From Vicinamibacterales bacterium (lineage in GTDB: Bacteria > Acidobacteriota > Vicinamibacteria > Vicinamibacterales > 2-12-FULL-66-21): a DNA stretch of 64,000 bases. Positions 51,697 through 57,389 of this stretch are shown one piece after another. The stretch covers positions 1-64,000 of the forward strand of contig DASSPH010000088.1 of assembly GCA_035699745.1 (NCBI GenBank), written 5' to 3'. Numbering within the stretch: position 1 is the stretch's first letter; each line of letters starts with the position of its first letter. The notes under the pieces were generated by a model. The model had not been told where the DNA came from. It ran no database searches and worked only from the letters and a program-made list of their open reading frames with translations. The position numbers and the translations under genes are program-made.

Positions 51697-52017
51697 ATGA
51701 TCGCCGAACGCGATCGGCCCGAACGGTTTCCCCCGGACGCGTCCGTGGTGGCGTCCGACCGTCAGTTGTCGACCACGCTCGCCGGCGAAGTCATCATCCT
51801 CGGTCTCGACGACAGCATGTACTACGGCCTGAGCGGCGCCGGCACGCGGATCTGGGAGCTGCTGCAGTCGCCGCGCACGATCGGCGACGTCATCGACGCG
51901 ATCGCCGCGGAGTTCGACGCGGACCGTGCGCGGATCGCCGCGGATCTCGACGCGCTGCTCGCCGACCTGGCCTCGCGGGGGCTGATTGCCATCACCCGGC
52001 CGCCGGTTGATCGCTAG
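51697..52017 (+). CDS. Lasso peptide B1: RRE (PqqD-like) leader-binding protein
   Basis: A 106-residue RiPP recognition element of the PqqD fold. It has GLDDSMYYGLSGAGTRIWELLQSPRTIGDVIDAIAAEFDADRARIAADLDALLADLASRGLI, with the typical strand then helix then helix pattern. In lasso biosynthesis such B1 proteins bind the precursor leader, through the YxxPxL motif seen in the 55169 gene, and deliver it to the peptidase. The ATG at 51697 is chosen over a GTG 15 bp upstream. Its 3' end overlaps the B2 start (51986). It begins 25 bp after the ECF42 stop. Confidence 0.87.
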   Translation: MIAERDRPERFPPDASVVASDRQLSTTLAGEVIILGLDDSMYYGLSGAGTRIWELLQSPRTIGDVIDAIAAEFDADRARIAADLDALLADLASRGLIAITRPPVDR

Positions 52018-52423
52018 CGCGCTTCGTCTCGACGCGCGCGAACGCGTGCAGGCGCTGCGCGCGCTGGGATGGCTGGTTGGCGCGACCGCGGCGGTGCGGG
52101 TGGTCCCGTATGCCACGCTCACCCGCGCGATGACCCGAATCGGCCCCGGCGGATCCGGGGCGGTCATCACCCCCGAAGCGTGCGCGGCGGCCATTCGGCG
52201 GGCCGCACGGATATGGCCGGCCGGATGCCTGCCGCAGGCGATCGCGGCGTCCTGCCTGCTCCGACGCGCGGGCCTGACCCCGAGGCTCACCCTCGGCGTG
52301 TCACAGACCGACGCGCGCTTCGACGCGCACGCGTGGCTCGAATGCAACGGCGTCGTCGTCACCGGCGCGGCGACGGATCGGCATTACACGCCGTTGACGG
52401 CGGGCGGACGGCAGACACGATGA
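51986..52423 (+). CDS. Lasso peptide B2: transglutaminase-like leader peptidase
   Basis: A 145-residue cysteine protease of the lasso B2/McjB type, which removes the precursor leader. The Cys and His of the catalytic set are C81 (PAGCLPQAIAASCLLRRAGL) and H114 (FDAHAWLECNGVVV). The catalytic Asp is not assigned with certainty. The TTG start at 51986 overlaps B1 by 32 bp, and a second TTG at 52007 is an alternative. The stop TGA overlaps the start ATG of the cyclase (ATGA). Confidence 0.85.
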   Translation: MPSPGRRLIASALRLDARERVQALRALGWLVGATAAVRVVPYATLTRAMTRIGPGGSGAVITPEACAAAIRRAARIWPAGCLPQAIAASCLLRRAGLTPRLTLGVSQTDARFDAHAWLECNGVVVTGAATDRHYTPLTAGGRQTR

Positions 52424-54150
52424 CGGCATTCGCCGCGATCCTGCACAAAGACGACGACCCGCCGTACATCGAGGGGATCGCGGCGGAACTGAGCGCGCTC
52501 ACCGGTCGCCCTGCAACCGCGGCGGCGCACGGGCGCTGCGCGCTGATCGCCGCGCCGATGCACGCTGACGACGAGCCCGTACCCGTCGAGCGGCCGAATC
52601 ATGTCGCCGTCGCCGGTTCGCTCGTGGTGGAAGGCGGAATCGGCCGCTTTCGCGGCGACAGCGATCGGCTGACCGGCGAATACGCGTTCGCCGCCTGGGA
52701 TCGGAAGCAGGAGCGGCTGCTGTGCGCCCGCGACGGTCTCGGCATCCGCTGCGTCTACGTCGCGGCAGCGCCGGAGGCAATCGTCGTCACCAACGTGCTC
52801 GCGGCGGCGCTGCGCCATCCGCGGATTGCCGCGGCTCTGGACGACGCGGCGCTGCTCGCGTTCCTGGCGCACGGCGGTGCGCCCGATGACGTGCGCACGT
52901 GCTACCGCGACATCAGGATGCTGCCGCCCGGCCACACGCTGGCCATCGACGGCCGGACGTTCGCGTCGCGAATGTGGCGGCACTGGCACTTTCCGCTCGC
53001 CGACGGCCGCCGCCGCACCGACGCCGCGATTCTCGAAGAGTACCGGGCGGTGCTCGCCGAGGCTGTCCGCGATCGGCTCGATCCCAGGGGCACGACGATC
53101 TTTCTCTCCGGCGGCATCGACTCGACGACCATGGCGGCGGCAGCCGTCGACGCGGCGCCGGCGGACACGCTGCGTGCCATCACCACGCGGTATCCGCGCT
53201 ACGTGGACGATGTGGAACTGCCGTTCACGCGCGCAGCAGCGGATTGCCTCGGACTTCCGCTGATCGTCGTCAATGCCGACGCTCACGTTCCATGGCAGGT
53301 GGATCCGGCCGATCTGCCGCCGGCGTCGCCGCTGGACGAGCCGATGCTCGCCGACTGGCGGGATGCGCTCGCGCGCGCGGCGGAACACGGCAGCGTGGCG
53401 CTGTATGGCGAGGACGGCGACGCCCTCTTCCGTCCGCCCGGCTGGCGGGCGCTCCGCCGGTCCGCGTCGCTGATCACGATTGCCGCGTCAGTGGCGCGGT
53501 ACGTCGCCGCCGAGCGGCGGCGGCCGTACCTCGGGCTGCGCTGGCGCGAACGCACCGGCATCGTCCGCCCGCGCATGCACGCACCGCCCGTGTGGCTGAA
53601 TGCGGAGGGGCGCGCGCTGCTCGACCGGCGCGAACCGGCAACGGTGCTCGGCTGCGCGCCCGAGCCGCTGCCGCCGCACCCCACGCGTCCGGAGGCGCAG
53701 GCGATTCTCACCTCGACGACAGTCTCGAGGACGTTCGCGGCGACGATTGCGCCGGAAACGACCCGGCGCCGCGTCGAGCTGCGCCTGCCAATCCTCGATA
53801 CCCGCGTGATCCAGCTCGTGATGTCGGTTCCGGCCATCCCGTGGTGCCAGCGCAAGGCGCTGCCGCGCCGCGCGTATCGCGGACGGCTTCCCAGGGAAGT
53901 GCTGGCCCGCCCCAAGACGCCGCTGGTCGGGTTCAACGAGGCGCTGGTGGCGGCATGGCGAGCGGCGAGCGGCGACCGCATCATGCCGCCAGGCGAGCCG
54001 GTCGCACGCTGGATCGATGTCGGGACATGGACGCGCACGCTGCGGCAGGGAGCGCCGGATGCCGTCATGGCGGCGTGGCGCGTCAGCGCGCTCGACGCGT
54101 GGATCGCGTCCGGCGCGCGTGCCGCCGGAGAAGCCGCGTGTATTCGATAA
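52420..54150 (+). CDS. Lasso cyclase (asparagine-synthetase-like, C protein)
   Basis: A 576-residue asparagine-synthetase-family protein. The PP-loop ATP site is SGGIDST (230-236) in TTIFLSGGIDSTTMAAAAVDAA. The N-terminal glutaminase-like domain lacks the Cys2 of true asparagine synthetases: it starts MTAFAAILHK, as in other lasso cyclases. This enzyme adenylates an Asp or Glu side chain of the core and forms the macrolactam with the amine of residue 1. It overlaps B2 by 4 bp and the methyltransferase by 13 bp. It is similar in length to other lasso C proteins. Confidence 0.9.
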   Translation: MTAFAAILHKDDDPPYIEGIAAELSALTGRPATAAAHGRCALIAAPMHADDEPVPVERPNHVAVAGSLVVEGGIGRFRGDSDRLTGEYAFAAWDRKQERLLCARDGLGIRCVYVAAAPEAIVVTNVLAAALRHPRIAAALDDAALLAFLAHGGAPDDVRTCYRDIRMLPPGHTLAIDGRTFASRMWRHWHFPLADGRRRTDAAILEEYRAVLAEAVRDRLDPRGTTIFLSGGIDSTTMAAAAVDAAPADTLRAITTRYPRYVDDVELPFTRAAADCLGLPLIVVNADAHVPWQVDPADLPPASPLDEPMLADWRDALARAAEHGSVALYGEDGDALFRPPGWRALRRSASLITIAASVARYVAAERRRPYLGLRWRERTGIVRPRMHAPPVWLNAEGRALLDRREPATVLGCAPEPLPPHPTRPEAQAILTSTTVSRTFAATIAPETTRRRVELRLPILDTRVIQLVMSVPAIPWCQRKALPRRAYRGRLPREVLARPKTPLVGFNEALVAAWRAASGDRIMPPGEPVARWIDVGTWTRTLRQGAPDAVMAAWRVSALDAWIASGARAAGEAACIR

Positions 54151-55124
54151 CCGACTATCTCTGGATGCTCGCCGACGAGACGCGCGTCGCCGCCTACGCG
54201 GCGGCGATCCGCGCGACCGTGCGGCCCGGCGATCGGGTGCTCGAGGTCGGCGCCGGCTTCGGGTTCTTCAGCGTGCTGGCGGCGCGCGCCGGCGCCGCGC
54301 ACGTGGACGCCGTCGACACCAATCCGGCCGTGCAGCTCGGGCCGCGCCTCGCGGCGGCGAACGGGTGCGCCGATCGCGTCCGGTTTCATCAGCTCGACGC
54401 GGAGCATCTGGAGCTTCCCCACCGCGCCGACGTCCTCATCAGCGACCTGCGCGGCCCGACGCCGTTCGCACGCCGGTCTGTCGCGACGCTCATCCGAGTA
54501 CGGCAACGGCTGCTGCGCGACGGCGGCGCGCTCGTTCCCCGCGCGGACACGCTTTTCGCCGCGCCGTGCGGCGTTCCCGAGGCGGTGCGCCGCGACGTGC
54601 GCGCGGCGTTCGGCCGCGAGGAGGTCGACACCAGCCCGATCGAACGCATCGTCCTGGACACGCCCTACCGCTGCGCGATCCAGCCCGCCGATCTGATCGC
54701 GGACGGACGGCAGTGGGCGCGCCTCGAGTACGGGAGCGTCCTGACACCCGACGCGCAGGGGGACGCCGAGTGGACGTTCGCCGGGCCCGAGACGCTTGCG
54801 GGCTTCGCGGTCTGGTTCGACACCGAACTGACGGAGACGATCGGCTTCTCCTCGGCGCCCGGGACGGCCGTTCGGGTCTACAACCAGGTCTTTCTCCCGC
54901 TCCGGCCGCCGCTGGCGATCGGCCGGGACGAACGCGTCCGCGTGCGAATCGCGCTGCGCCTGGTGCACGACGACTACATCTGGGCGTGGACCGTGTGGGC
55001 CGCCCCCGCGGGCGGGCACGAACGTGAAGTGGCGCGGCAGAACTCGATTGCCGACGCGGTGCTGGACCCGGTTCTCCTCCATCGGCAGCTGGCGGCAAAG
55101 CCGACCGCTGGTTTGACCGGCTGA
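54138..55124 (+). CDS. PRMT-like class I methyltransferase in the lasso cluster
   Basis: A 328-residue SAM methyltransferase similar in layout to arginine methyltransferases. It starts YSITDYLWMLADETRVAAYAAAIR, then motif I VLEVGAGFGFFSVLAARAGA (34-53), D60 (VDAVDTNPA) and SDLRG (102-106). In PRMTs this last position is SEWMG, whose Glu residues grip the substrate Arg; here the first Glu is Asp and the rest differ, so a different acceptor is possible. The C-terminal half is beta-rich as in the PRMT barrel. A GTG start at 54138 overlaps the cyclase by 13 bp. Not in the canonical lasso gene set. Confidence 0.82.
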   Translation: MYSITDYLWMLADETRVAAYAAAIRATVRPGDRVLEVGAGFGFFSVLAARAGAAHVDAVDTNPAVQLGPRLAAANGCADRVRFHQLDAEHLELPHRADVLISDLRGPTPFARRSVATLIRVRQRLLRDGGALVPRADTLFAAPCGVPEAVRRDVRAAFGREEVDTSPIERIVLDTPYRCAIQPADLIADGRQWARLEYGSVLTPDAQGDAEWTFAGPETLAGFAVWFDTELTETIGFSSAPGTAVRVYNQVFLPLRPPLAIGRDERVRVRIALRLVHDDYIWAWTVWAAPAGGHEREVARQNSIADAVLDPVLLHRQLAAKPTAGLTG

Positions 55125-55168
55125 GATTCGTCCCCTACACTGAAGTCTCCTGTCCGCCGGGAGTACCC

Positions 55169-55330
55169 ATGACGCAGATGCCGGATTCGCGTGACGTTCG
55201 TCCTGCGCCGCCGCGGCGGCCGTATGCGACGCCGTCCCTGACGGTGTTCGGCACGGTGGCGAGCCTGACCGGCACGCAGACCATGTCGGGCGTCAACATG
55301 GACGGCGGTCCGAACAACAGCAAGACTTGA
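55169..55330 (+). CDS. Lasso peptide precursor (A)
   Basis: A 53-residue precursor. The leader (1-37) has a charged N-terminus, then RRPYATPSLTVFGTVASLTGTQ with the RRE-binding motif Y19-x-x-P22-x-L24 and Thr36 at position -2. The proposed core is TMSGVNMDGGPNNSKT (38-53). Thr38 would bond to Asp45 (ring of eight). An Asp followed by two Gly, and a Pro/Asn tail, fit lasso cores. Position 1 is Thr rather than the usual Gly. The site of cleavage is inferred from the Thr(-2) rule and the ring size. Its TGA stop overlaps the TTG start of the kinase. Confidence 0.8.
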   Translation: MTQMPDSRDVRPAPPRRPYATPSLTVFGTVASLTGTQTMSGVNMDGGPNNSKT

Positions 55331-56274
55331 TCGGCGGCGTCCTGCACCGCGCGGCCGGTCTGGTCGTAGCCGCCGATCGGCCGTTGCCCGGCTTCATCCG
55401 GGAGCCGGCCCACGCGACGCTTGCGGACCTGCACGTCCATCTCGGCACCCCACCTTCGTGGCATGGCGCAGAGGCCTCGGCGCTCCACAGCGGCGATCGC
55501 ATCACCGGCAGTGGAGAACCGGTCGTCGTCATCTCGCGCTCCGCGGCAGGATTTCATCTCGATTACGCCGACGGCACGCGTGCGTGGATCGACGCGTCAG
55601 GCGCGAATGTGTGGTGCACCTGGCCCGCGTCGGCGTCGCTGGACGATGCCTGCACGTATCTGTACGGTCCGATTCTCGGGCTCGTCCTCCGGCTGCGCGG
55701 CGCCCTCGCGTTCCATGCCAGCGCGGTGCAGATCGGCGGCGGCGCGATCGGGTTCGTGGGACGGCACGGCGCCGGCAAGTCCACGCTGGCCGCGGCCCTC
55801 GGCGCGGAGGGCTGCCCCGTGATAACAGACGATGTGCTGCACGTGACGCCGGACGGGCGGCGGTGGCTCGCCGAGCCGTTTGCGTCGATGCTGAAGCTGT
55901 GGCCGGACGGGGCGAAGATGGCGCTCGGAAAGGGGGCGGATCTGCCGCGGATCGCCGAAGGGTGGGACAAGCGGGCGCTGGTCCTGGGCGAGCGGATCCC
56001 GGCGGCGACGCAATCGGTTCCGCTGCGCGCGCTCGCCTGCTTCGGTGAGCCCGGCAAAAGCTCCGCCATCGCGCCGCTGCCCGCCGCGGCGGCGCTGCTG
56101 CGCCTGGCCGGCAACAGCTCGGCGTCGCCGCTGCTCGATCGCGAGCAGCGCGCGGCCGAGTTTCAGATGCTGTCGGCGCTCGTGCGCGACGTGCCGTGCG
56201 TCACGCTCACGCCGCCCGAGGATCCGCGAGACCACGCGGTCCTCGTCCAGCAGGTCCTTTCATGGAGCCCTTAG
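55327..56274 (+). CDS. HPr-kinase-like protein (lasso peptide kinase)
   Basis: A 315-residue protein of the HPr serine kinase fold. Walker A is GRHGAGKST (145-153) in AIGFVGRHGAGKSTLAAALG. The conserved ALAFHASAV carries H130, and ITDDV (about 166-170) provides acidic residues. Homologues in other lasso clusters phosphorylate the C-terminal Ser of the peptide; here Ser51 and Thr53 of the precursor are candidates. The TTG start at 55327 overlaps the precursor stop and is supported by continuity; a later start cannot be excluded. It overlaps the nucleotidyltransferase by 13 bp. Confidence 0.85.
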   Translation: MIGGVLHRAAGLVVAADRPLPGFIREPAHATLADLHVHLGTPPSWHGAEASALHSGDRITGSGEPVVVISRSAAGFHLDYADGTRAWIDASGANVWCTWPASASLDDACTYLYGPILGLVLRLRGALAFHASAVQIGGGAIGFVGRHGAGKSTLAAALGAEGCPVITDDVLHVTPDGRRWLAEPFASMLKLWPDGAKMALGKGADLPRIAEGWDKRALVLGERIPAATQSVPLRALACFGEPGKSSAIAPLPAAAALLRLAGNSSASPLLDREQRAAEFQMLSALVRDVPCVTLTPPEDPRDHAVLVQQVLSWSP

Positions 56275-57389
56275 ATCTCCTCGTCGCGAGCGCACGCCAA
56301 TCGCTGGGTGCGCCGCGACGCGGCATCACGGCGCCACGGACGGTGTGGCACGCGCTGCCCGACGCCGCCGAACGGCACGGGATGAGCGCGTGGGTGCACG
56401 CGTCGCTGCAGACCGGCGGTGACGCGCCCGCGGAGATCCGCGCCGCGATCGAGGCGCGCGCCCGCGCGCAACGCATACGGGCGCTGCACGCCGTGTCGCA
56501 GCTCACGAGCATCGTCCAGTCGCTGCGCCGGGCGGGCATCGAGTCGGTCGCGCTGAAGGGGCCGCTGCTGTCGGCATGGCTGTACGGCGATCTCGGGATG
56601 CGGCGCTTCACCGATCTCGATCTGCTGATCGACCGCGAGCAGCGGGAGGCGGCGCTGCGGATCCTCTCGGGTGACGGGTATGTGCTGCGCGGCGGGATGT
56701 CGGTCGCAACCGCGCGCGTCGTGTATGCCGGGACCGGTGCGTGGCCGCTGACGCATCCGGCGGGATTCCCCGTCGACCTGCACTGGCGCGCGCAGGCGCA
56801 CGGATTCGCGTCGCCGTTCGGGCCGCGCGAGGTCCTGCGCGACAGCATCACCGTGCCCGCGGCCGGCGGCGACGTCAACCTGCCCTGCGCCCCGCACGCC
56901 GCCGTCCTTGGCCTGCTCCACGCCGCCAAGCATCTGTGGACGTCACTGGAGCTGGTGCTGTCGATCGCGCACGTGATGCGGCGGAGCGAGGTCGACTGGA
57001 CGCTGGTGTATCGGCTGAGCAAGAACGCGGGCGCATGGAACGCATGCGCGGCGGGCATGACGCTCGCGAACGAACTGTTCGATGTCATCATTCCGGCGGT
57101 GGCACACGATCACCTTCGAACGGCCGCGATCGACCCGCTGGTGCGAATGGCGCGGGCCTTCCTGCGGATGCCGGACGTCGCCGGGGCGCCGCTGCGCGCC
57201 GAACTCCGCGCGCATTGCGCGTCGCTCGATACGCTGCGCGGCCGCGGCCGCTATGCCGCGTGGCGGCTGCTCGCGCCGACGCCGCTCGAGCCGGCCTGGT
57301 GGCCGCTGCCCGATCGGCTCGCGCCGCTCTATGCGCCGGTGCGGTTGATTCGTCTGGCGATGCGGCGCGGCGTCCGCGTGCCACACTGA
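56262..57389 (+). CDS. Nucleotidyltransferase-family protein of the lasso cluster
   Basis: A 375-residue protein of the nucleotidyltransferase family (PF14907-like). The active-site block is VALKGPLLSAWLYGDLGMRRFTDLDLLIDREQREAALRIL (K99 to D124), with the typical DxD pattern. Further parts are PVDLHWRAQAHGFASPFG and HAAVLGLLHAAKHLWTSLELVLSIAHVMRR. Such proteins occur next to lasso kinases in other genomes. In the pseudomycoidin system a homologue has been associated with adding groups to the phosphorylated peptide, to my knowledge. The ATG overlaps the kinase stop region. The next gene is thrA after 6 bp. Confidence 0.82.
   Translation: MEPLDLLVASARQSLGAPRRGITAPRTVWHALPDAAERHGMSAWVHASLQTGGDAPAEIRAAIEARARAQRIRALHAVSQLTSIVQSLRRAGIESVALKGPLLSAWLYGDLGMRRFTDLDLLIDREQREAALRILSGDGYVLRGGMSVATARVVYAGTGAWPLTHPAGFPVDLHWRAQAHGFASPFGPREVLRDSITVPAAGGDVNLPCAPHAAVLGLLHAAKHLWTSLELVLSIAHVMRRSEVDWTLVYRLSKNAGAWNACAAGMTLANELFDVIIPAVAHDHLRTAAIDPLVRMARAFLRMPDVAGAPLRAELRAHCASLDTLRGRGRYAAWRLLAPTPLEPAWWPLPDRLAPLYAPVRLIRLAMRRGVRVPH

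Follow-up and report, generated by a model that had tools for sequence, protein, structure and literature searches.

A probable lasso-peptide gene cluster of an acidobacterium carrying a PRMT-fold methyltransferase without the arginine-binding motifs

In this study, a stretch of 64,000 nucleotides from a Vicinamibacterales genome (hereafter the window) was investigated, and we observed a compact group of seven genes which, judged by its predicted proteins, is almost certainly a lasso-peptide biosynthetic cluster of an acidobacterium. Besides the core machinery, it encodes a kinase (K), a nucleotidyltransferase-like protein (N) and a methyltransferase (MT), whose relatives accompany lasso genes in about 30 clusters of Acidobacteriota. 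Our preferred reading, to which we attach a probability of roughly three in four, is that the precursor peptide (A) would be converted to a lasso peptide on which K and N act by phosphorylation and further decoration, and whose tail is methylated by MT.

The seven co-directional genes occupy positions 51697-57389 of the plus strand, with all frames open, and five of the six junctions overlap, namely B1/B2, B2/C, C/MT, A/K and K/N, so the mostly overlapping gene set drawn up in a preliminary description of this DNA was confirmed throughout. The sole junction with a gap is that between MT and A (44 bp), and a GGGAG Shine-Dalgarno-like motif precedes the start of A. Upstream, the cluster is flanked by an ECF-type sigma factor, and downstream by genes for aspartokinase-homoserine dehydrogenase and threonine synthase; further flanking genes encode a YCII protein and, on the opposite strand, a MacB/FtsX permease. 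An exporter gene adjoining the cluster was sought in both flanks, and none was found.

With reference to the core machinery, B1 (51697..52017, +) encodes a predicted discrete RRE of the PqqD-like type for leader binding, matching PF05402 at 2e-18 (66.9 bits, cut-off 23.4) and the lasso PqqD model NF033536 at 48.6 bits, under its cut-off of 80. B2 (52007..52423, +, TTG start) is a putative transglutaminase-like leader peptidase, which matches PF13471 (78.9 bits, cut-off 26), exceeds the cut-off of NF033537 lasso_biosyn_B2 (69.6 bits against 33), and has its catalytic Cys conserved in 74/75 homologues and its His in 75/75. C (52420..54150, +) is predicted to be an asparagine-synthetase-like lasso cyclase; it matches PF00733 (83.6 bits, 2.8e-23, cut-off 21), its best NCBIfam match is the lasso cyclase NF033535 (111 bits, under the cut-off of 525), its SGGxDS loop is invariant in the homologue alignment, and it groups with other lasso cyclases in the tree. 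A lack of lasso-family domain matches in B1, B2 or C, named in the preliminary description as evidence that would count against it, was not encountered, with B2 over its lasso-specific cut-off and B1 and C scoring under theirs. The product of K (55327..56274, +, TTG start), a putative HPr-kinase-related peptide kinase, is weakly HprK-like (TIGR04352, 26 bits, 3.9e-06); it has the four residues His-Lys-Asp-Asp that lasso kinases are described to share (PMC9266682), and these vary little or not at all among about 50 homologues. N (56262..57389, +) encodes a PF14907 nucleotidyltransferase-like protein of the PsmN/BsfN type (132.5 bits, cut-off 31), with an invariant DxD. B1, B2, C, the kinase and the nucleotidyltransferase all belong to established lasso families.

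The MT gene (54138..55124, +, GTG start) encodes a class-I methyltransferase, which scored 25 bits against PRMT_C, under the cut-off of 27. A profile built from 26 members of the family matched PRMT6 at E=2e-62 over positions 4-277, and with the AlphaFold model of MT (pLDDT 91.5) Foldseek returned PRMTs in all 50 matches listed, PRMT6 at 4.6e-27. Profile and model show MT to have the PRMT two-domain fold, which it has in common with the eukaryotic PRMTs PRMT6, PRMT2 and Hmt1, its closest solved structures; however, it lacks their arginine-binding double-Glu loop and THW motif. The PRMT loop SEWMGYxLLxESM (SE...ES) is replaced by SDLRGPTPFARRS in the window MT, which falls within clade A of the MT tree (17 rows, support 99/96), and its equivalent reads D-x-(R/G)-G-x-L-P in most clade-A proteins. 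In clade B one Glu is mostly kept, at a shifted place, and both clades have lost the double-Glu loop and the THW motif; MT is therefore not classed here as a PRMT enzyme. A true arginine methyltransferase activity of MT, directed at arginines in lasso peptides, would fit PRMT6 being its closest solved relative and the Arg found near the C-terminus in several relatives' cores. Nevertheless, with the double-Glu loop and THW gone in both clades, and with zero Arg in the predicted core of the window precursor and in several other clade-A cores, arginine methylation is unlikely, and we give it the least credence of all the alternatives considered. The label of PRMT-like methyltransferase, applied earlier from the letters, therefore stands for profile and fold, but not for arginine methylation.

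Most relatives of the window MT, including those of L034, L035 and L037, carry a C-terminal helical tail of about 55 residues in three helices, which the window MT lacks. This tail weakly resembles the helical half of PqqD, but its interpretation as a fused RRE was rejected, as its profile matched the B1 set with only 33% probability and AlphaFold predicts it to be all-helical, without a beta wing.

To place the cluster among its relatives, 193 genomes of the same class were searched, with MT homologues detected in 38 of them and lasso B2 in 67, and the neighbourhoods of these genes were scanned with profiles made from the window genes. About 30 other Acidobacteriota clusters hold, alongside MT homologues, B1, B2, C, K and a precursor with the matching leader, and this recurrence, together with the family matches, bears out the lasso-peptide assignment and answers the proposal to search related genomes for homologous clusters. 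The same result means that the tailoring set, taken earlier to be atypical, is not unique to the window. Another cluster gene lies on the same stretch in 16/17 clade-A cases, the exception being L194, near a contig end, and cluster genes lie nearby in 13/13 tree rows of clade B; L040 and L042 harbor two MTs each, one per clade. The sequence of one clade-A locus recurs unchanged in Acidobacteria bacterium UBA2161, whose genome belongs to the same order as the window; this match places the MT family in Acidobacteriota and, as it concerns a close homologous cluster, agrees with the presumed acidobacterial host. Mapped on the cyclase tree, MT presence shows about ten changes, indicating that lasso production does not need it, and this is what might be expected if MT were a passenger gene or modified a non-peptide target. 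We consider this improbable, as the co-location with lasso genes is repeated in two clades and many families, and the window MT overlaps C; that MT acts on the window precursor is, in our assessment, very likely.

The position of the precursor after C and MT was also confirmed, but not as an unusual feature, because most relatives share the order with the precursor after C, making it ordinary in Acidobacteriota. An MT immediately after C is less common, and was also noticed in L035, L044, L047 and L048.

The product of A (55169..55330, +), a precursor of 53 aa, displays the leader motif Y19xxPxL24...G28...L33T34 (YxxPxL...G...LT) and an acceptor Asp45. The leader weakly matches the lasso models NF033528/NF033521, and its pattern was matched in about 30 homologous Acidobacteriota clusters, so that the absence of a conserved precursor at 55169, the other finding held in advance to speak against the cluster, was not observed. 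The cores were compared in a common register that counts 17 residues on from the Tyr/Trp in the leader motif, and in this register nearly all MT-associated precursors have Thr at -2 and most have the acceptor Asp/Glu at position 8. The window core may be read either as T36-T53 with Asp10, in the register of its relatives, or as T38-T53 with Asp8 and Thr36 at -2, and Thr(-2) and Asp8 coincide only with a core start at T38. Of the features expected of a split-B lasso precursor, the YxxPxL leader is thus present, whereas Thr at -2 together with Asp/Glu 7-9 residues into the core depends on which start is taken. The window shares Asp at position 10 of the common register with L037 and L203, and Asp is at position 9 in L034, L195, L198, L200 and L205; these clusters, together with L039 and one MT-less cluster, belong to one cyclase clade (11 rows, 100/100). 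This clade either closes larger rings or is cut at a displaced site, and the predicted ring of the window peptide would accordingly comprise 10 residues in the register of the relatives, or 8 with a two-residue shift of cleavage. The calculated masses are 1819.78 Da for T36-T53 with the 10-residue ring and 1590.68 Da for T38-T53 with the 8-residue ring. To our knowledge, a ten-residue ring exceeds every known lasso ring.

This unusual position of Asp, the scores of C and B1 under their lasso cut-offs, and the missing helical tail of the window MT could also be taken as signs that the cluster is decayed or yields no threaded product. Such decay is very improbable in our view, given that the frames are open, the catalytic residues are kept, B2 is over its cut-off, and both leader and acceptor are present.

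During comparison of the cores, two features of the C-terminus were found to accompany MT. The core ends in Cys-Leu in 13/14 clusters with a clade-B MT, compared with 0/11 with clade A only and 0/25 without MT, and among related cores, those of L036/L049 (only clade A) differ from those of L040/L042 (both clades) by just this Cys-Leu at the C-terminus. Lys or Arg is found among the last five core residues in 27/30 MT clusters, against 5/25 MT-less ones (p=2e-7, ignoring ancestry); in L196, of clade A, the core contains neither Lys nor Arg. Ancestry was controlled for by independent pairs on the cyclase tree, of which only 3 to 5 could be formed. The link between Cys-Leu and clade B is supported by 3/3 such pairs, too few for significance, and the link between basic tails and MT was not significant over 4-5 pairs on that tree (1.7 for, 0.4 against). 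These basic-tail and Cys-Leu associations make the C-terminal tail a candidate site of MT; for a site within the last five core residues specifically, we hold the chances to be about even. A target in the ring or loop instead of the tail, such as Ser/Thr5, Asn or Asp with lihuanodin-like aspartimide chemistry, would account for the Ser/Thr at core position 5, seen in 20/25 clade A/B clusters against 2/25 MT-less ones, and the ring Asp is indeed the target of PIMT-type lasso methyltransferases. Against it, the fold of MT is that of PRMTs and not of PIMTs, the window core offers no free acidic residue other than the ring acceptor, and the position-5 association is not significant once ancestry is controlled on the cyclase tree; we regard it as unlikely, yet as the most serious competitor to tail methylation. 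The clusters behind the link of Cys-Leu with clade B are L040, L042, L043, L044, L046-L048, L053, L054, L056 and L058, with the fragments L064 and L127 in addition.

Under the preferred reading of a tail-methylated lasso peptide, B1 would bind the YxxPxL leader motif, and MT would methylate the C-terminal tail of the linear precursor, with the side chain of Lys52 or the C-terminal carboxylate as the best candidates. This methylation would precede leader removal by B2, and it is placed before threading because the linear precursor is the substrate of most such lasso tailoring enzymes characterised so far (PMC8498205). K would phosphorylate a Ser/Thr of the core; the case of paeninodin would suggest the C-terminal Thr53 or Ser51, and Ser3 of bsf would suggest a Ser in the ring. 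N may add a further group onto the phosphate, as PsmN adds a hexose in pseudomycoidin. B2 would cut the leader, and C would close the macrolactam ring on Asp45. Speaking against this reading are the scores of C and B1 under their lasso-specific cut-offs, the lack of an adjoining exporter gene, the lost significance of the basic-tail link under ancestry control, and the core of L196.

Without MT, the window cluster would be a bsf- or pseudomycoidin-like one. The bsf cluster of Bradymonas sediminis, whose HPr-kinase-like K was shown to phosphorylate Ser3, resembles it in the split B1/B2, C, the HPr-kinase-like K, the nucleotidyltransferase N and the YxxPxL leader (PMC10368454); it differs in having no methyltransferase, in possessing a D transporter, and in Ile rather than Thr at position -2 of the leader. 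Likewise, the pseudomycoidin (psm) and paeninodin clusters share the HPr-like kinase, and psm, known for phospho- and hexosyl-lasso peptides, also the PF14907-type nucleotidyltransferase (PMC9266682, PMC8498205), but they are of Bacillota, have no methyltransferase, and end in Ser, whereas the window core ends in Thr.

The known lasso methylations are the work of two other enzyme families, StspM/LasF (C-terminal ester) and the LihM-type PIMTs (aspartimide) (PMC9266682), which are SAM-dependent lasso tailoring enzymes like MT but of different methyltransferase families. Our search of the open-access literature found no description of a PRMT-fold lasso methyltransferase, and nothing relevant on lasso peptides together with arginine methyltransferase, PRMT or Vicinamibacter. 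We know of no StspM/LasF or PIMT-type lasso methyltransferase that is PRMT-fold. The preliminary statement that the combination is not described thus holds only as far as the open-access literature goes; Group II lasso clusters of uncultured bacteria from soil metagenomes, with split B1/B2 like the window and with 'phospho- or methyltransferases', were cloned before without a product (PMC12670498); the available portion of that text leaves the methyltransferase family unstated, and the combination may therefore have appeared in annotation already. A tailoring family that has the PRMT fold but no arginine pocket, and is common in a soil phylum with few cultured members, would bring a new activity to a peptide scaffold and open another way to modified lasso peptides. 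As the precursors are conserved, the substrate of MT is directly testable, with cores ending in -CL (clade B) set against basic tails (clade A) in matched pairs such as L036 and L040. A broader and rather speculative proposal, doubtful as a whole, is that a PRMT-fold family which lost the double-Glu loop and THW took on a dedicated role in Acidobacteriota, methylating lasso tails, with two clades that differ in target (clade B being tied to a C-terminal Cys-Leu), and that the cyclase clade of the window closes nine- or ten-residue rings.

Several other observations were made among the relatives. At position 13300 of L042, the core TCGITTKATGNMLRVCL has no acidic residue at the acceptor place (Ala at position 8), in a cluster that is otherwise complete. 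L152, L157, L159 and L160, with K present and MT absent, have their first acidic core residue at positions 10-12 of the common register. The MT-less L108, L110, L112, L113, L119 and L120 display a predicted ring with two Cys (xCxGxCxDG), a pattern that suggests a disulfide inside the ring. In L056 (7191-7780), three tandem lasso precursors precede one MT-K pair. Finally, the genome of the window itself harbors a second lasso cluster (L072, contig C46), which is MT-less and consists of B1-B2-C and two precursors with a different core type.
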